Source: a virus
Length of the DNA stretch: 25,550 nt
IMG/VR virus record: IMGVR_UViG_3300009502_000185
Coordinates: 1-25,550 of that record
Direction: 5' to 3' (one strand)
Part shown: piece after piece, positions 16,869 to 25,550 of the stretch
Layout: every line of letters starts with the position of its first letter
Position numbering within the stretch: the stretch's first letter is position 1
Program-made: the position numbers and the translations under genes
The notes under the pieces: model-generated
Databases searched by the model: none
What the model was told of the DNA's origin: nothing
The model's input: the letters and a program-made list of their open reading frames with translations, nothing else

Positions 16869-18049
16869 TGGTCAGCCTCCCCACCAGCCTGAAGCCTGCC
16901 GCCTGGCGCTACATCCCGTTCGAGGCGCGAGAGGTCGGCCGCGAGGCGGGCCGGCGCCTGGTGGTGCACGAATACCCCCAGCGCGACCAGCCGTCCTTCG
17001 ACGACATGGGCCGCAAGACGCGCAAGTGGAAACTCCAAGGTTTCGTCTGCGGCGAGCTGGCCCCCGCGATCCGGGACCGCATGATCGCCGCGTGCGAGAA
17101 GGAAGGGGCCGGGCCGCTGATGCACCCGACCCTCGGCCTGGTCCAGGCCCGGTGCGACTCGCTGTCCGTCCGCGAATCCGTGGACCAGGGCGTCAATGTC
17201 GTCGAGTTCACCTTCGATTTCGTCGAGGCCGGGGCCGCCTACTCGATCGGGGTCCTCCAGACGGTCGCGGCGCTGGCGAAGGCGGCGGCCGTCACGGCAT
17301 CCAGCGCGGTCGTGTACACCGCCCTGCACCGGTCCGAGGGCCAGCCCCAGGAAGTGCGCGCCCGAGCGGCGGCTGACCAGGCGGCCAGGGCGGCGTCACT
17401 GTCGGGACTGGCCGGGAAACTGTCGGACCGCGGCGCGGCCGAGGCGTTCAAGGGCGCGGTGGACGCCATCGCCGCTGGCGCTGCCACGCTCGCGGGCGAC
17501 CCTGCCGCGGCCGTCGACGCCTGGCAGACCACGTTCGCCACGGTCACCAGCGCGGCAGACCTGCGCGCCATCGCCTCGTCATTGCAGCCGTCGTTCGAAG
17601 CGTCGCAGGCCGCGGCCGTGGCGGGTCCGTCGTCCGGGACCTCCGCGACGCTTGCTCTGAACGCCGCGGCGCTCGACCTGTTGCTGTTCCCGTCCGCGCT
17701 GGCCCAGGCGGCTGCCGCGGCCACCAGCGACACCTACGTCACGTGGGATGACGCGGTGGACGTCCGGGACAGCCTGGCCGCTCAACTGGACGTCGCCTGC
17801 CTCTGGACTGTCGATGCGGACCTGTACGCCGCGCTGCTGGACCTGAAGGGCGTGATGGTGGGGGCAATCAGCGACGAGGCAGTGGCGCTGCCCCGGCTGC
17901 GGCCCCTCATCGTCCCCCGACCCAGGCCTGCGCTGGCGCTGGCATTCGACCTGTACGGCGACGCCACCCGCGCCGTCGAGATCGTGACCCGAAACGGCCT
18001 GTCCGACCCGTCTGCGGTGGCGGGCGAACTGAGGGTGCTGACTGCATGA
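16868..18049 (+). CDS. Mu gpN-like tail/baseplate protein (DNA circularisation N-terminal domain)
   Basis: This 393-residue protein has an N-terminal domain of about 120 residues with the family pattern: LKPAAWRYIPFEARE, GRRLVVHEYPQRD, WKLQGFVCG, then GAGPLMHPTLGLVQARC and VEFTFDFVEAG. The rest is Ala-rich and helical. In Mu, gpN lies between tape measure and gpP and is a baseplate hub component. The 'DNA circularisation' label of the domain is historical. ATG overlaps the tape measure stop (TGATG) after GGGAGG. Confidence 0.85.
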   Translation: MVSLPTSLKPAAWRYIPFEAREVGREAGRRLVVHEYPQRDQPSFDDMGRKTRKWKLQGFVCGELAPAIRDRMIAACEKEGAGPLMHPTLGLVQARCDSLSVRESVDQGVNVVEFTFDFVEAGAAYSIGVLQTVAALAKAAAVTASSAVVYTALHRSEGQPQEVRARAAADQAARAASLSGLAGKLSDRGAAEAFKGAVDAIAAGAATLAGDPAAAVDAWQTTFATVTSAADLRAIASSLQPSFEASQAAAVAGPSSGTSATLALNAAALDLLLFPSALAQAAAAATSDTYVTWDDAVDVRDSLAAQLDVACLWTVDADLYAALLDLKGVMVGAISDEAVALPRLRPLIVPRPRPALALAFDLYGDATRAVEIVTRNGLSDPSAVAGELRVLTA

Positions 18050-19149
18050 CGCGCGACCCGAACAAGGCGTACATCGAGGTGGGCGACATCCAGCACGCGG
18101 GCTGGCTGACCGTGTCCATCCAGAGGTCCATCGAGCAGGCCGCCGCGCAGTTCAGCGTGAGCCTGACCGACACCTGGCCCGGCCAGCCGAATCCGGTGCA
18201 CGTCCACCCGGGGGACCCGTGCCGCGTGCTGATCGGGGACGACGTGATCGTCACCGGGTACGTCGACGCCGTGCAGCTCGCCCACGACGCCAAGTCGCAC
18301 GCCGTTTCGATTTCGGGCCGGTCCCGAACCTCCGACATCATCGACTGCTCGTGCGTGGCCTCCAGGTCGAAGCCGAAGCAGTGGGGGCACAACCGCGCGA
18401 CGGTCCTCCAGATCGCCCGGGACGTCTGCAGCGACTATCACGTCGACGTCATTACGGACGTCGCAGATCTGAAGCCTCTGCCCCGCGGCTACAAGGCCGA
18501 GATCGGAGCCAAGGCCTTCGACGTGATCGAGCAGGTCTGCCGCGAGCAACGCCTGCTCGTCACCGACACCCGGGACGGGAAGCTCCTGCTGACCCGTGTG
18601 GGTTCGCAGTCGGGCCCGACGTTCGCGCACCCCGGGAACATCCTGTCCTCGTCCCTGCGCGCCAACGTCGCGGGTCGCTTCACCGAGTACATCGTGAAGG
18701 CGCAGACGGCCGGCGACGACGACAACTGGGGCACGTCTGCGGCCGGGGTCGAAAGCCGCGTCGAGGACCTGGGCGTCATCAGTCGGTATCGCCTGCTGGT
18801 GATCAAGGGCGAGAAGCAGATGGACAAGGCCCGGGCCAAGTGGCGGGCCAACTGGGAGGCCGTCACCCGCGCCGGCCGCTCCTGCCAGGTCGAAATCACC
18901 GTCGCCGGCTGGCGCGACGACCAGGGCCAGGTCTACGACGTGAACCGCCTGTGCAAGGTGGTGGACCCCGTGATCGGCGTGGACGCGATGCTGCTGTCCG
19001 TGAGCGTCGCATACAGCCTGAGCATCGGCGAGGGGCAGATCACGCGGCTCTCGCTGGCGCCCCCCGGTGCCTACGAACCGGAACTCCCGAAGAAGACGAA
19101 GGCAGGAAAGGGCGGCATCGGCCTGTTCCCCAATGCGAGTGCATTCTGA
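18046..19149 (+). CDS. baseplate hub protein, Mu gpP-like
   Basis: This 367-residue protein is near the length of Mu gpP (gp44). Features of the hub fold include an N-terminal WLTVSIQRSIEQAAAQFSVSLTD, GDPCRVLIGDDVIVTGYVDAV, then ISGRSRTSDIIDCS. A mid domain with KAFDVIEQVCREQRLLVTDT and GKLLLTRVGS follows. The C-terminus (YDVNRLCKVVDP) is typical of late-control/hub proteins. It would form the trimeric hub beneath the tube. The start overlaps the gpN stop (ATGA), and the end overlaps the spike start. Confidence 0.88.
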   Translation: MTRDPNKAYIEVGDIQHAGWLTVSIQRSIEQAAAQFSVSLTDTWPGQPNPVHVHPGDPCRVLIGDDVIVTGYVDAVQLAHDAKSHAVSISGRSRTSDIIDCSCVASRSKPKQWGHNRATVLQIARDVCSDYHVDVITDVADLKPLPRGYKAEIGAKAFDVIEQVCREQRLLVTDTRDGKLLLTRVGSQSGPTFAHPGNILSSSLRANVAGRFTEYIVKAQTAGDDDNWGTSAAGVESRVEDLGVISRYRLLVIKGEKQMDKARAKWRANWEAVTRAGRSCQVEITVAGWRDDQGQVYDVNRLCKVVDPVIGVDAMLLSVSVAYSLSIGEGQITRLSLAPPGAYEPELPKKTKAGKGGIGLFPNASAF

Positions 19150-19715
19150 TGAGCGATTCGAACAGGGCGGTTGTGAACCTGGTCCCGGACGACGGCGAGG
19201 CCCGCCGGATGCGGACGATCCAGGTGACGGTGTTCGAGGGCGACGTCCGGGACGACGTTGAGCACTTCGAGCCCTACGGCATCACCTCGCGCGTGCAGGA
19301 CGCTCCCGCGGACGGTAGGGGCGCCGAGGCTATCGTCATCGACCTGGGCGGCAACTCCGACCACCCGGTCGCGATCGTGGTGGCCGACCGCCGGTACCGC
19401 GTCACCGGCCTCGCGAAGGGCGAGGTCTGCATCCACGACGACCAGGGGCAGCGGATCACGCTGAAGCGGGACCGGATCCTGGTCGAGGCCCCGATCGTCG
19501 AGGTGAAGTCCCCGGACGTCCGGCTGGGGGAGACCGCCGACGCGGCGATCGCCAAGTGGCCGGCGCTCAAGACGTTCATGACCGACATCCTGGCCGCGCT
19601 GACGGCGGCCACGTCCTCGCCCACCGGGGGGACCCTGACGTTCATTCCAGCATCACCCCTCCCGGCAGTCCCTGCGGACGCCGACGGGGGCACGACCAAG
19701 GTCACTGCGAAGTGA
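19149..19715 (+). CDS. baseplate central spike, Mu gp45-like
   Basis: This 188-residue protein follows gpP, as in Mu. MRTIQVTVFEGDVRDDVEHFEPYG is the characteristic N-terminus, followed by an OB-like AEAIVIDLGGNSDHPVAIVVADRRYR. Beta-helix-type strands come next (GEVCIHDDQGQRITLKRDRILVEAPIVEVKSPDVRLG). The last ~45 residues (Ala/Thr/Pro-rich) extend beyond a usual spike tip. The protein would trimerise into the membrane-piercing needle. ATG 19149 overlaps the gpP stop (TGATG). Confidence 0.87.
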   Translation: MSDSNRAVVNLVPDDGEARRMRTIQVTVFEGDVRDDVEHFEPYGITSRVQDAPADGRGAEAIVIDLGGNSDHPVAIVVADRRYRVTGLAKGEVCIHDDQGQRITLKRDRILVEAPIVEVKSPDVRLGETADAAIAKWPALKTFMTDILAALTAATSSPTGGTLTFIPASPLPAVPADADGGTTKVTAK

Positions 19716-19722
19716 GGAAAAG

Positions 19723-20670
19723 ATGGCCTACAACGCCTGGGTGAATATCCCGATCGGTTCATACCTGGCCGGGCCGGTCTTCCGGATCTGGAAGGCGGTC
19801 ACCGCCCTCCTCTCCGGGGGGATGGCCGGGAAGATCTCCATCGTCGCTTGCTCCGCCGGGACGGCCGGGGCTTCGCCGCCCTTCTCCGACGCCGGATGGA
19901 CCTCCGATACCTCCCCGCCGAACGGCTCTTGGTTGGTCCTGGAATGGGCGAACGGCTGGGCGGACGGCTCGAAGATGCAGGTCTTCGTCGGGTACCGCTC
20001 GACGACCGGAGCGCTGGCCGGCTTCGGATCCCTGGGTGCTGGCTTGTACGTCTGTTGCTCTCCGACCGGCGGCTGGAACGTGGCGGGCTACTTCGGCGCG
20101 TCCCTGGCCGACTGGAGGAACGGAAGCATCAAGCAGGGAAACCAGGTCTCCCCGAATACCATGGCCCTCGTCCTGACCTCCGGGATCGCAGGCCTCCGCC
20201 CCGGGGCCCTGATCTATGCGGGGCGTTCCGGAGGCGGGAACCACGTGGCTGGCCTCTACGCCGGAGCCCTGGTCCCGGCCTCCGGATTCCCGGACTACAA
20301 GTATCAGTGCGCGGTTTGCTCCGAGGGCGCCTCCTCGATTTACGACTGGGATTGGTGGGGCTGGCTGGCCGGGATCTATTGCCTGGTGCCGAAGGTCACG
20401 CTGGACGGCTGGCAGAACGCCTACGCCGGGTGGGGGCGCTCCGGTTCCGGAACCTCGAATGGCGCGGTCACGATGACCAGCCCGGCCGGCGGGTACATCG
20501 GTCCCCAGGTCCCGATGATGAACCAGGTCACTGGGAACTGCCACGGCTTCCTCGACGAATTCGTCTACTACGGGGCGGCGAACGGTACGGTCTCCGGGGA
20601 TGGGACCCGCTGGTTCTGGAATGGCATGGGCTGGCCTCGCGAGGCTTCCCGCGACGGGTCCTGGGTCTGA
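19723..20670 (+). CDS. unrecognised Trp/Gly-rich protein in the baseplate locus
   Basis: This 315-residue protein starts at ATG after GTGAGGAAAAG. I do not recognise the family. It has about 18 Trp, very high Gly content and few charged residues. Aromatic-rich segments (SWLVLEWANGWADG, YDWDWWGWLAG, RWFWNGMGW) alternate with Ala/Gly/Ser stretches, suggesting a beta-sandwich or lectin-like structural protein. I see no clear signal peptide or coiled coil. It sits between the spike (gp45) and gp46 genes, where Mu has nothing, so a baseplate decoration or host-surface (glycan) binding role is a reasonable guess. Glycine codons are mixed GGG/GGA/GGC, while neighbours strongly favour GGC, hinting at separate acquisition. 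Confidence 0.8.
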   Translation: MAYNAWVNIPIGSYLAGPVFRIWKAVTALLSGGMAGKISIVACSAGTAGASPPFSDAGWTSDTSPPNGSWLVLEWANGWADGSKMQVFVGYRSTTGALAGFGSLGAGLYVCCSPTGGWNVAGYFGASLADWRNGSIKQGNQVSPNTMALVLTSGIAGLRPGALIYAGRSGGGNHVAGLYAGALVPASGFPDYKYQCAVCSEGASSIYDWDWWGWLAGIYCLVPKVTLDGWQNAYAGWGRSGSGTSNGAVTMTSPAGGYIGPQVPMMNQVTGNCHGFLDEFVYYGAANGTVSGDGTRWFWNGMGWPREASRDGSWV

Positions 20671-20682
20671 TAGGAGCGCTCC

Positions 20683-21837
20683 ATGGCAGACGTAGGGATC
20701 GCCCTCAACTTCGGGGCTTTCAATGGTATGGACCCGGTCGTCCGGACGCTGAACCTGGCCTCGGCCTCCCAGCCGGATCCAACCCACGTCCTCCTGACCT
20801 TCGACATTCCACCGGGCTCCGGAGCGCTCCTCCTGGCTTCCTATACCCTGGATGCGACGGACGGCGGGGCTGCCATCGCGGTCGCCTCGGTCGCCGAGGG
20901 CACGCCCGCGCCGGGCTCGGCCGTCGCTCTGACCATCCTTCTCAGTCTCGCCGCTCAGGGGACCTTGGGGAAGGCCTATCGGGTCACGGTGTCGGGCGTG
21001 CTTGGTGCTGAAGGCGAGGCGCTCGGAACGACCATCGTTTCCTGGACGGCGACCGCCGAGCGGCCAAACGTCGTAGCCGTCGCTGGCGCCGGCCGAATCG
21101 TCACTGTGGACTTCGACACCACCCCCGATCCCGCGACCGTGGGCGCCCCGGGTTCCTGGACCGTCCAGCCCCTCGCTGCTGGTGCCGTCGTCGTCGTCAC
21201 GGCCGTCGCGCTGGTCGGTTCCAGGGCGTCGCTGACCGTCCTGCCCGAGTTGACCACCGTCGAGTCCTACCGCGCGACCTGCCCCGCGACGCTCGCGGAC
21301 CTCCAGGGCAACCTCGTCGCGATCCGGACCGGCGACTTCCTGGCGCCGCGGGTGGTCGAACCTGAGAGCGCGACCACCTGGTCGGCCACTGGCGACGGGG
21401 CGCTCCTGGACATCGGCGCGGGCTGGTTCGAACTCGTCCCGTGGTCGCCGAGCCTGCCGCCGGTCTCCCTGGACCAACTCGTGTGGCTCAGCCTGTTCAG
21501 CGACCGCCGGGCGGGCCCCGACGACGAATTGTCAGTCACCAGCGGCGACCCGGTCTACCGCGGCGGCTGGTGGGCGGACACGTTCACGGGCGATTCCTTC
21601 GGTTCGAAACTGTGGTTGCTGGCCCGCTCGCCCGTCAACCCGACCACGCTCCTGCAGATCCAGCAGTTCGCCACCGAGGCGCTGGCGTGGATGGTCGACG
21701 CTGGGATCGCGGCCCGGGTGGACGTGTCGGTCGAACGTCAGGACCTCGGGCAGGTCGCCCTACAGGTCGTCGTGACCAGGTGCGACGGATCCAAGAAAGC
21801 GGTGTTGTACCCGGACCTGTGGTCGTCGTTCCTCTAG
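20683..21837 (+). CDS. baseplate gp46-like protein with two N-terminal Ig-like domains
   Basis: Of 384 residues, the last 123 (262-384) form the gp46 domain: SLDQLVWLSLFSDRRAGPDD, RGGWWADTF, GSKLWLLARS, ALAWMVDAGIAARVDV and a final YPDLWSS. Mu gp46 has only about 145 residues in all. The first ~235 residues are extra. They look like two SbsA-type Ig domains: HVLLTFDIPPGSG ... AYRVTVSGVLGAEGEAL, then RIVTVDFDTTPDPATVGAPG ... SYRATCPATLADLQGN. These may project from the baseplate wedge and bind the host or the neighbouring Trp-rich protein (inference). The ribosome site is TAGGAG. The gene order 45-(insert)-46-47-48 places it in the baseplate. Confidence 0.85.
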   Translation: MADVGIALNFGAFNGMDPVVRTLNLASASQPDPTHVLLTFDIPPGSGALLLASYTLDATDGGAAIAVASVAEGTPAPGSAVALTILLSLAAQGTLGKAYRVTVSGVLGAEGEALGTTIVSWTATAERPNVVAVAGAGRIVTVDFDTTPDPATVGAPGSWTVQPLAAGAVVVVTAVALVGSRASLTVLPELTTVESYRATCPATLADLQGNLVAIRTGDFLAPRVVEPESATTWSATGDGALLDIGAGWFELVPWSPSLPPVSLDQLVWLSLFSDRRAGPDDELSVTSGDPVYRGGWWADTFTGDSFGSKLWLLARSPVNPTTLLQIQQFATEALAWMVDAGIAARVDVSVERQDLGQVALQVVVTRCDGSKKAVLYPDLWSSFL

Positions 21838-21855
21838 GCTGCATGAGGTGCTGCG

Positions 21856-22992
21856 ATGGCGTTCGCGATCCCGACCCTGCCCGCACTGATCGACCGGATC
21901 AAGGGCGACATGAACGCGCGGATGGGGAACACCAACGCGCTCATCCCCAGGTCGCTGGCGTTCGTGCTGGCGCACGTCCTGTCTGGCGTGACCTGGGGCC
22001 TGTACCTGTACCAGCAGTGGATCGCACAGCAGGTCATCCCCGACCGCGCTGAGGGCGTGCAACTCGAACGATGGGCCCGGCTGTTCGGCGTGACCCGGGC
22101 ACCGGCTGCGAAGGCGGCCGGAATCATCAGCGTCACGGCTGCGGCGGGCTCCGACCTGGTGGACGGGACGGTGCTGCAGCGGGTCGATGGCACTGAGTAC
22201 CAGGTCGTCGGCAACTACCACTGGGCCTCGTCCAGCCCGCCGCCGGTGGCGGTGACCGTCCGGGCGATGGTCGCAGGCGGGTCGGCCGGCTTCCCCTGGG
22301 CAACCGACGCGGCGCTGCTGCTGGTGTCGCCTCCTGCCGGCGTCGTGGCCACGTGCCCCCTGGTCGCCCCGGGAATCTCCGGCGGCCTGGACATCGAGTC
22401 CGACGCGTCGCTGCTGGACCGCCTGCTGCAGCGCCTGGCGAACCCGCCGCAGGGGGGCGCCGCGTCCGATTACGTCGCCTGGGCCCGCCTGGTGGCCGGC
22501 GTGGATCTCGTGTGGCCGCAGGCGTTCGCCGACGGCGTTCCTCTCGGCCAAGTCCGTGTGCTGTTCACGATCATCGACGCGAACGACGACGGGTCGGTCC
22601 TTCCGGCCGAGCCGTCGCGGACGGCCGTCCAGGCCACCATCACCGCTCGGACTCTCGTCACGGCCGCGGTGACCACCGTCGTCCCGACCGACCACCCGGT
22701 GGCGATCGAGATGAGCGCGAGCCTGCTGCCGGGCTTTTCGCCCGAGCAGGCGACGACGAACGTGCGGCGCGAACTGCAGGCGAAGTTCCGGGCCCGCGCC
22801 GAACTGGACTTCTCGGCCGACGGCTGGCTGGTCGAGAACTCGCGCCTCCTCGATGCAATCGGCCGGGCGGACGGCATCGATACGTTCGACCTGCTGGATG
22901 TCGACGGCGGGGGCCCGCTCGCCGACGTCGTGCTGGCGAGCAACGCGTACCCGACCATCGTGGACGCTGGGGTCACGATCAACGAGGCCTGA
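21856..22992 (+). CDS. baseplate wedge protein, Mu gp47 / P2 gpJ-like
   Basis: This 378-residue protein has the baseplate_J layout. An N-terminal helical part includes LPALIDRIKGDMNARMG, LAHVLSGVTWGLYLYQQWIAQQ and LERWARLFGV. Then come the PAAKAAGIISVT strand region, DGTEYQVV, AGSAGFPWATDA-type spacing and GGLDIESDASLLDRLLQRL, a near-diagnostic J motif ('GG.d.Es...lr.R'). The C-terminal half contains VWPQAFADGVPLGQVRVLF and LRRELQAKFR-like helices. It forms the wedge ring with gp46 and gp48. ATG 21856 follows GAGGTGC. Confidence 0.9.
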   Translation: MAFAIPTLPALIDRIKGDMNARMGNTNALIPRSLAFVLAHVLSGVTWGLYLYQQWIAQQVIPDRAEGVQLERWARLFGVTRAPAAKAAGIISVTAAAGSDLVDGTVLQRVDGTEYQVVGNYHWASSSPPPVAVTVRAMVAGGSAGFPWATDAALLLVSPPAGVVATCPLVAPGISGGLDIESDASLLDRLLQRLANPPQGGAASDYVAWARLVAGVDLVWPQAFADGVPLGQVRVLFTIIDANDDGSVLPAEPSRTAVQATITARTLVTAAVTTVVPTDHPVAIEMSASLLPGFSPEQATTNVRRELQAKFRARAELDFSADGWLVENSRLLDAIGRADGIDTFDLLDVDGGGPLADVVLASNAYPTIVDAGVTINEA

Positions 22993-22993
22993 G

Positions 22994-23545
22994 ATGGGCA
23001 CGATCTGGATCGCCACGAACGACGACTTCCTGCGGGTGCTGCAGGACTTGCTCCCCCGCGGCCTGGTGTGGACACGCGACCCGGCCCGCCGCCTGACGCG
23101 GTTGCTGCAGGGCCTGGCCGACGAGTTGGTCCGGGTGCAGAACCGGGCCGCGGCGCTGGTGGAGGAGGCGGACCCGGCGACCACGACGGCCGCGGGGATG
23201 CTGCCCGACTGGGAGCGCGTCATGGGCCTGCCCGAGTTCGCCTACTACCCCACGGCCGAGTCCGACCGGCGGGTCGTGCTGGTCGGGAAACTGGCCGCGC
23301 AGGGAGGGCAGTCCGCCGCCTACTTTGAGGGCCTGGCTACGGCGATGGGCGTCGTCGCGGACGTCACCGACACGAGCATTCCCTACGTCTGGTCCGTGTC
23401 CATCCTAGCGCACATCACGCGGTGGAGGGCCGGCGACCGTGCCGGCGAACCGATCGTGACGTTCGATGACCTGGCGGTGCGCATCCGCCTGGCGTTCGAG
23501 AAGTACAAGCCTGCCCACACCGCCATCTGGTGGACGGGCGCCTGA
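22994..23545 (+). CDS. baseplate/tail protein, Mu gp48-like (DUF2313)
   Basis: This 183-residue protein shows the DUF2313 pattern. An N-terminal FLRVLQDLLPRGLVWTRDP is followed by a helix ending in VEEADPATTTAAGMLPDWERVMGLPE, which matches 'e.DP.ta.e.L.dWEr..GLp'. The C-terminal part (FEKYKPAHTAIWW) is also typical. It is the last wedge component in the order gp46-47-48 and may link the tail fibre to the baseplate. It starts one base after the gp47 stop. The ribosome site is weak (GAGG), so translation is probably coupled. Confidence 0.87.
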   Translation: MGTIWIATNDDFLRVLQDLLPRGLVWTRDPARRLTRLLQGLADELVRVQNRAAALVEEADPATTTAAGMLPDWERVMGLPEFAYYPTAESDRRVVLVGKLAAQGGQSAAYFEGLATAMGVVADVTDTSIPYVWSVSILAHITRWRAGDRAGEPIVTFDDLAVRIRLAFEKYKPAHTAIWWTGA

Positions 23546-23557
23546 GAGGAGTGAGCC

Positions 23558-24661
23558 ATGCACCGGATCGATACCCCTTCGAACACGGCTTCCTGCCCGA
23601 CCCCGTTGACCCCGGGAACGCCCGGCTACTTCAAGGCCCCGGACCCGGGCCAGCACAACGGCACGGAGGTCTCCAACGACTGGCTGAACACGGTTCAGGA
23701 GGAGATCGCCGCGGTCGTCGAGGGCCTGGGCGGGACCCTGAACAAGGCGCTGCGCAACCAGATGTGGCTCGCGCTCTTGAATCGCGTGCAGGGGATCTAC
23801 TCCGCAGCGGCCGATACGCAGGTCGTCACCACGCCGCACGACCGGGCGGTCATCGCGGCGATCGACTCCCGCGTGAAGTACGCGGCCTCGTTGGTCCTGG
23901 GCGGCTACCGGAACGTCGTTGGGTCCATCGGCTCCGTCATCCTGGGCGGGACGGACAATGCGACCGATGCAATGCACTCGGTCATCGCGGGTGGCGTCAA
24001 CAACATTCTCTCGCTGCTGGCAGCGCGCTCGCTCGTGCTGGGCGGCAAGAACGTGAAGGTCGCGACGCCCGACACGATTGGCTTCGGGGCCGGCGCGACA
24101 GCACCGACCGGCGACGCGACGAACCAAGCGCTGGGCGTGCGAATCGATGCCGCCACCGGCGGTATCCACATAAAGGGCAAGACCTACTTCGGCGGCAACC
24201 CGAACGGGTCCGATGGAGTCGCTTTCGATGGAGATGGGGCAACTGGCAGCGTGGACCCCGTTGCGGGCGCGGTGCAGTTCGTCGGTTCGGTCAAGGTTGG
24301 AGGCAATCCCGCCACCGGAGCCGGGTACACCGCGGACCTGGGCGGTCCCCGCGGCGAACTGACGGCGCAGCGCGTCACCCTTGGTAGTGGCGAGAACACG
24401 TCGTCTCGGACCATTGCGGGCGGAACCCCAGCAGCGGCTGGAAGCCCTGGGGACGAGGTCATCATCATCGAATACAACACGATGATCGCTGAGGCCTCGC
24501 ACGTCGACTGGGAAATCGTCAACGCTGGAGGAGCCAACTCGTTCCCGGTGAAGGGGTGGATCGATATCTCTGCCGGTCAGGTCATATTCCACATCAAGAA
24601 TCTCGGGGCCGGCGCCGTCACGACGAGCGAGATTCGATACAGCATTCTCAACCCGGCGTGA
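23558..24661 (+). CDS. tail fibre / receptor-binding protein
   Basis: This 367-residue protein lies at the usual fibre position after gp48. The N-terminal 80 residues are the phage-attachment type: HRIDTPSNT, GTEVSNDWLNTVQEEIAAVVEG, then LNKALRNQMWLALL. Residues 111-165 hold four copies of an S-[LV]-[VI]-[LA]-G-G motif spaced about 15 residues, as in beta-roll trimeric adhesins. The C-terminal ~120 residues (VIIIEYNTMIAEASHVDWEIVNAGG ... ISAGQVIFHIKN) form a compact beta-rich tip that would bind the receptor. A good ribosome site (GAGAGGAG) precedes ATG. No chaperone gene is obvious after it. Confidence 0.8.
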   Translation: MHRIDTPSNTASCPTPLTPGTPGYFKAPDPGQHNGTEVSNDWLNTVQEEIAAVVEGLGGTLNKALRNQMWLALLNRVQGIYSAAADTQVVTTPHDRAVIAAIDSRVKYAASLVLGGYRNVVGSIGSVILGGTDNATDAMHSVIAGGVNNILSLLAARSLVLGGKNVKVATPDTIGFGAGATAPTGDATNQALGVRIDAATGGIHIKGKTYFGGNPNGSDGVAFDGDGATGSVDPVAGAVQFVGSVKVGGNPATGAGYTADLGGPRGELTAQRVTLGSGENTSSRTIAGGTPAAAGSPGDEVIIIEYNTMIAEASHVDWEIVNAGGANSFPVKGWIDISAGQVIFHIKNLGAGAVTTSEIRYSILNPA

Positions 24662-24663
24662 CG

Positions 24664-25422
24664 ATGGGAAACGGCTTCGATATCCGCGTGGACACAGCAC
24701 CCTTCGTCGAAGGCCTGCGCGAATTCGTCCGGCAGGTTCCGTTCGCGATGTCGTTCGCGATGAACTCCACCGGGAAGGACGCGCTCGCCTACATGCGGTC
24801 GGACGTCCAGCGCATCTTCACGATCCGGACCAACCTCGACCGCCTGGGCATCAACGCGAAGTGGTCCACGAAGCACGACCTGAGCCTCGTGCTGGGGTCG
24901 GAGTTCAACATCTCCGTACTAGAGGTGCTGGGCGGCATGAAGACCGGGAAGGGCGGCCACGATGTCGCGGTGCCGATGGTCGGTCCCGGCGCGCCCCGGC
25001 CGACGATTACAGCGATGACCCGCCCGTCGAAGTGGCCGAAGGCGCAACTCGCCGACAGCAGCGGGACGTTCATCGGGACCGTGAAGACGAAGAAGGGCGA
25101 CGTCCGGGGCGTGTGGCGCCGCGTCGGCCGCAGCGAGGCTACCGGGAAGATCGTGCGCGGCGGTGGCAAGGGCAAGGGTGCCCGCCACGGCCTGAAGTTG
25201 CTCTACGAGCTGTTGCCGTCCGTGAACATCGATGCCCGGTGGCCGATGAAGGAACAGGTCGAGCACGTGTGGGCGGGCCGGTTCCCGGTCCACGCACAGG
25301 AAGCGATCGAGTACGCGATCCGCACCAGCCACGAAAAGGCGGGCCGGACCCACGTGGCGGGCATGCGGTACGGGGTCGGGTCGAATCAGCATGCCGGGAA
25401 GCTCGTCCCGGGGAGGTTCTGA
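24664..25422 (+). CDS. tail-completion / minor tail protein-like, function uncertain
   Basis: This 252-residue protein starts two bases after the fibre stop, with a poor ribosome site. Residues 10-75 (LREFVRQVPFAMSFAMNSTGKDALAYMRSDVQRIFTIRTN ... TKHDLSLVLGS) resemble phage minor tail or virion-morphogenesis proteins with the pattern 'vPfA...ALN.ta......l...m...F'. The remainder is basic and Gly-rich, with GGGKGKGARHG near 170 and a likely globular C-terminus. In other phages such genes lie near the head-tail junction. Here it follows the fibre, so another role (host takeover, fibre assembly) cannot be excluded. I chose ATG 24664; the frame extends upstream only within the fibre gene. Confidence 0.6.
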   Translation: MGNGFDIRVDTAPFVEGLREFVRQVPFAMSFAMNSTGKDALAYMRSDVQRIFTIRTNLDRLGINAKWSTKHDLSLVLGSEFNISVLEVLGGMKTGKGGHDVAVPMVGPGAPRPTITAMTRPSKWPKAQLADSSGTFIGTVKTKKGDVRGVWRRVGRSEATGKIVRGGGKGKGARHGLKLLYELLPSVNIDARWPMKEQVEHVWAGRFPVHAQEAIEYAIRTSHEKAGRTHVAGMRYGVGSNQHAGKLVPGRF

Positions 25423-25550
25423 TGGGGTACGCCGAAAAGCGCGTCCGCGTTGCCGACTTCGGGATCCTGCCGCTGTCGTCCGACCTACTGGTGTCGGTGC
25501 CGTCCGTTCCCGGGATGGACTGCAAGGTACACGTCCTCGCCGCGAGCGAC
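25422..25550 (+). CDS. start of an unidentified gene, cut by the window end
   Basis: ATG overlaps the preceding stop (TGATG) and has a strong ribosome site (GGGGAGG). The 43 visible codons have good third-position GC and no stop. The N-terminus begins MGYAEKRVRVADFGILPLSS; I do not recognise it. Tight coupling suggests it works with the preceding gene. Confidence 0.65.
   Translation, partial: MGYAEKRVRVADFGILPLSSDLLVSVPSVPGMDCKVHVLAASD

Follow-up and report, generated by a model that had tools for sequence, protein, structure and literature searches.

The stretch of DNA analysed here, which we refer to as the window, is an entire IMG/VR record of 25,550 bases. Its head genes (large terminase, portal, head protease/major head protein and decoration protein) are lambda-like, its tail is contractile, with sheath and tube genes, and its baseplate module is of the Mu/SfV type; positions 4357-24661 can thus be described as a mosaic, in which packaging and head genes of the lambda type (terminase, portal and head protease) are combined with a contractile tail of the Mu/SfV type. 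The window genes scanned included no transposase, and the term "Mu-like" therefore applies to the tail only. The baseplate genes follow the order gp43/DNA_circ, gp44, gp45, TRP, gp46, gp47, gp48 and fibre. Domain matches on the plus strand identify a gp44/GpP-like hub (18046-19149), a gp45-like spike (Phage_Mu_Gp45; 19149-19715), a gp46 wedge protein with an N-terminal Ig-like extension (20683-21837), a gp47-like Baseplate_J wedge (21856-22992) and a gp48-like wedge (22994-23545), and the tail fibre occupies its usual site after gp48 (23558-24661, same strand). Within gp46, the GP46 wedge domain (21472-21792) is preceded by a Big_5 Ig-like domain (21091-21315) that scores E 2e-4 in the window, 1.2 bits below the Pfam cut-off, and above the cut-off in three relatives. 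The fibre has a conserved short-tail-fibre N-terminus and, along its full length, shares 31-44% identity with the fibres of relatives. On its 3' side lies a gene for a 252-aa protein (24664-25422) that is 57-59% identical in relatives and matches phrog_1924, "minor tail protein", solely at its N-terminus (residues 7-74).

The gene that we designate TRP, for Trp-rich protein, lies between spike and gp46 on the plus strand (19723-20670) and encodes 315 aa from an ATG start. As the preliminary description had stated, the product is rich in Trp and Gly and poor in charge, with 18 Trp (5.7%), 17.1% Gly and 9.5% D/E/K/R, as compared with 2.4% Trp and 18.4% charged residues across the remaining baseplate proteins of this phage. 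TRP starts 7 nt past the gp45 stop, 12 nt separate its end from the gp46 ATG, and its third-codon GC of 0.87 matches that of its neighbours. The ORF is a genuine gene, since open orthologues of 300, 329 and 316 aa occupy the same slot in three further genomes and a fourth contig ends 57 codons into one. The two flanking genes are normally adjacent, as had also been claimed: in SfV and in Pseudomonas phage PG1 the two share an overlap of 1-4 nt, and TRP is therefore an insertion with respect to the common arrangement.

Searches of Pfam, PHROGs, NCBIfam, PDB sequences, annotated phage records and plasmids yielded no match to TRP, and the window protein used as a direct query retrieved nothing from phage records, IMG/VR viral contigs, genome contigs or the PDB. 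The earlier impression that TRP belongs to no recognisable family was thus borne out in these collections, but a small syntenic family does exist. Orthologues were reached by synteny from the neighbouring gp44, not by TRP homology. An IMG/VR contig (L005) with a gp44 71% identical to that of the window ends 57 codons into a TRP orthologue that is 44% identical over that part, and a contig of a Myxococcota metagenome-assembled genome (L020, from G001), with a gp44 68% identical, has an orthologue of 300 aa in the gp45-gp46 slot. When 379 Myxococcota genomes were searched with a profile, one further member, of 329 aa, came to light on a 214-kb contig of G032 (L024), and a gp45 search of the same genomes led to a 316-aa slot protein in G192 (L055) that is 24-29% identical to the other TRPs. 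The latter scores 18.2 bits against the profile of the three closer TRPs, a value reached by none of 19,791 shuffles, and is thus a divergent TRP homologue. The window TRP shares 48-50% identity with the two closer full-length orthologues and 27% with the divergent G192 allele. Judged by synteny and similarity, TRP is therefore no orphan, but a member of a small, rare family found in the same slot of five phages or prophages. Scanning viral contigs for a degenerate DNA motif recovered L005, the remaining matches being attributable to chance; a weak tblastn match in Pseudomonas phage KT1 proved to be a different gene, and weak matches in G031 and G026 (E 0.003-0.008) were taken as chance. The TRP-bearing genomes G001, G032 and G192 fall in one order of Myxococcota, represented by 14 genomes in the set, and for this reason the window phage most likely infects a myxococcote of the same order.

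Conservation is uneven along the protein. Residues 1-120 (19723-20082) are better conserved among the three closer orthologues, with 65-82% identity per 40-residue block between the window and G032, whereas residues 161-280 (20203-20562) form the most variable part, at 15-45% identity; the C-terminal tail (residues 281-315; 20563-20667) carries the pattern DGTR..W....PREA.RDG.W, common to the three closer orthologues. The four family members contain 18, 15, 11 and 11 Trp, so that abundance of Trp is not a conserved feature and an argument for glycan binding from Trp-richness is unsupported. AlphaFold2 runs on TRP with two alignments gave pLDDT values of 32 and 30 and no confident fold.

The slot between gp45 and gp46 holds other genes in related baseplates. 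A Myxococcota prophage with the same baseplate type (L053, from G056) carries there an unrelated gene of 294 aa, L054 has a gene of 145 aa in the slot, and L057 (from G207, of the same order) has no separate slot gene but a 675-aa gp46 with an N-terminal extension of ~395 aa before Big_5 and GP46. The related baseplates L052, L003, L004 and L006 have no slot insert. These varied contents in other Myxococcota prophages show that the gp45-gp46 slot is an insertion site. By eye, the L053 slot protein (L053:4312-5196), which is Trp- and Gly-rich, appears lectin-like, and the N-terminal region of the L057 gp46 (L057:3841-5868) resembles a right-handed beta-helix; neither has a Pfam match. The proposed co-occurrence of TRP with Ig-containing gp46 holds in one direction, in that all four complete TRP-bearing loci (4/4) have such a gp46, but an Ig-containing gp46 without TRP is present in L057. 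In L053, the gp46 downstream of the unrelated insert has 166 aa and is too short for an Ig domain, as judged by its length rather than by a domain scan.

Comparison of G032 with G192 revealed how sharply TRP departs from its surroundings. The two are 98% identical in gp45, 77% in gp46, 84% in gp47, 92% in gp48, 94% in the fibre and 87% in the minor tail gene, versus 29% in TRP. At the DNA level they are 94% identical up to 3 nt past the gp45 stop, drop to background through TRP and the first ~50 gp46 codons, and are alignable again from there to the contig end (mostly 70-97%, 86% overall). Because similarity stops after the gp45 stop and resumes ~50 codons into gp46, TRP and the N-terminal tip of gp46 have been exchanged as a cassette in this pair, the only clean replacement pair (n=1). 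The corresponding variable segment of the window gp46, its N-terminal ~40 residues, spans 20683-20802 on the plus strand; where comparable, these 40 residues are 23-35% identical among relatives, as against mostly 75-92% for the GP46 domain. The same tendency is evident in the window, where identity with the two closer relatives amounts to 48-50% for TRP, 57-79% for the other baseplate genes and 31-44% for the fibre, making TRP the most divergent gene of the module after the fibre. Across the same phages, the wedge proteins gp46-gp48 are 61-92% identical and TRP 27-50%. Since G032 and G192 have a common fibre and differing TRPs, the two genes change independently of each other. A search for a diversity-generating retroelement, covering the DNA of this record, found a single direct repeat of 32 nt and 72% identity in 19000-25550 and no reverse transcriptase among the genes scanned.

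The wholesale swapping of TRP between relatives in which the rest of the tail stays near-identical points to a role at the host surface, and the conservation of wedge and hub genes in these phages argues against an internal structural one. Exchange between close relatives on a conserved virion background is the behaviour expected of a receptor-binding protein, and TRP shows it. Our preferred reading, held with moderate confidence, is that TRP is an accessory baseplate virion protein in contact with the host surface, a module for adhesion or receptor binding which a family of contractile-tailed phages of Myxococcota would possess in addition to their fibre. With its gene placed as an exchangeable cassette after that for the spike and before that for the gp46 wedge protein, TRP would be incorporated into the virion at or close to the N-terminal arm of gp46, which bears the Ig-like domain, and would bind a surface receptor alongside the ordinary tail fibre. 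That the exchange reaches the N-terminal tip of gp46 suggests a need for TRP and this tip to match, for instance through docking of TRP on the gp46 arm; with one clean pair at hand, the recombination endpoint may instead have fallen within gp46 by chance. Of the two roles that the preliminary description had put forward, a baseplate-borne adhesin and a new wedge component, the adhesin is the better one, and it is so on evolutionary grounds: wholesale allele exchange favours it, and the tryptophans do not.

The suggestion of a wedge component fares worse. As a structural wedge or peripheral baseplate protein with no part in host recognition, TRP would be expected in the baseplate operon and could covary, as it does, with the gp46 N-terminus, but no wedge protein of these phages diverges nearly as fast as TRP does, and TRP is missing from the related, same-type baseplates L003, L004, L006 and L052, so we assign this reading little probability. 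Rapid change does not in itself single out host recognition, since injected effectors and anti-host genes diversify too. TRP might accordingly be cargo, an effector or tip protein carried on the gp45 spike, delivered on contraction and diversified by an arms race with the host. Its fast exchange would suit an effector, and its gene sits directly downstream of the spike gene, where spike-linked genes can be found; yet TRP matches no toxin, enzyme or PAAR-like family, and across the exchange it is the adjoining gp46 tip that changes while gp45 stays 98% identical, which leads us to consider cargo unlikely.

An accessory baseplate protein that degrades glycans, clearing surface polysaccharide in the manner of a depolymerase, would likewise account for the position of TRP, its exposure-like variability and its aromatic residues. 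No glycosidase or lyase family matches TRP, however, and its charged residues are few, and in our judgement such an activity is quite improbable. It is also very doubtful that TRP is a moron-like gene whose product stays outside the virion, acting for example in superinfection exclusion or defence, and that it was simply inserted in the tail operon: its presence is indeed accessory and it is exchanged as a unit, but it lies 7-12 nt from same-strand neighbours on both sides, keeps to one slot throughout the five loci and is replaced together with part of gp46.

What is new here is the rare TRP family, its slot and an exchange that is independent of the fibre. The analysis points to a cassette slot that is hypervariable, lies between the spike and wedge genes of contractile baseplates and is distinct from the fibre locus. 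If TRP recognises hosts, as we favour, these phages would have two independent host-range determinants, and the Ig arm of gp46 would become a candidate docking site for adhesins. A bolder version, to which we grant a modest chance, holds that this contractile baseplate of the Mu type has a second apparatus for recognising hosts, composed of TRP and the Ig-bearing gp46 arm together and independently exchangeable, with either a new fold or a distant relationship to the pilus-binding siphophage fibre proteins of JBD30. Phages of Myxococcota have been little studied, and TRP thus supplies an uncultivated lineage with a marker gene and an assigned host.

Comparison with known protein families returned two similarities. 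The profile of three TRPs matched phycoerythrin and phycocyanin beta chains in the PDB with E 6e-7 over ~110 near-gapless residues (20167-20562; residues ~149-280), and reversed and permuted controls gave no such match, indicating that simple composition is not responsible. Homology to phycobiliprotein beta chains was nevertheless rejected: two of the three members give no match when used singly, the E-value weakened to 7e-5 once the fourth homologue was added, and none of the three members matches the Pfam phycobilisome family at E 10. The similarity is probably due to chance, although it is not fully explained.

A second likeness, first spotted by eye, is to phrog_687 (YuA gp70, D3112 orf48), a family of tail proteins encoded beside the siphophage tape-measure gene, usually in two tandem copies. 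It includes JBD30 gp47 and gp48, which are tail fibres binding the type IV pilus (PMC11445458; PDB 8rk3). TRP is close in length to some members and, like them, rich in Gly and aromatic residues. No phrog_687 match to TRP was found at E 10, and hhalign of the three-member TRP profile gave a probability of 0.5%; with the four-member profile, a 37-residue stretch aligned at the anticipated site (score 25.5, probability 2.4%, P 0.019). This score exceeds those of all 150 permuted profiles (150/150), a test that is optimistic because the family had been picked by eye. Tail type and gene position differ as well, TRP not being in tandem beside a tape-measure gene. The similarity is only suggestive, and we treat the link to the JBD30 gp47/gp48 family as a lead, not as membership.

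With variable tail fibres and receptor-binding proteins in general, TRP shares a better conserved N-terminal part, a variable remainder and allele exchange between close relatives; unlike tail fibres, it lies away from the fibre locus, in phages that have a separate fibre varying independently. The closest counterpart of the locus as a whole is the Mu/SfV-type baseplate operon (gp44-gp45-gp46-gp47-gp48-fibre), with which the window shares the order and families of all flanking genes. It differs from that operon in two respects: gp45 is followed not directly by gp46 but by an extra gene of 315 aa, and gp46 itself carries an N-terminal Ig-like extension.
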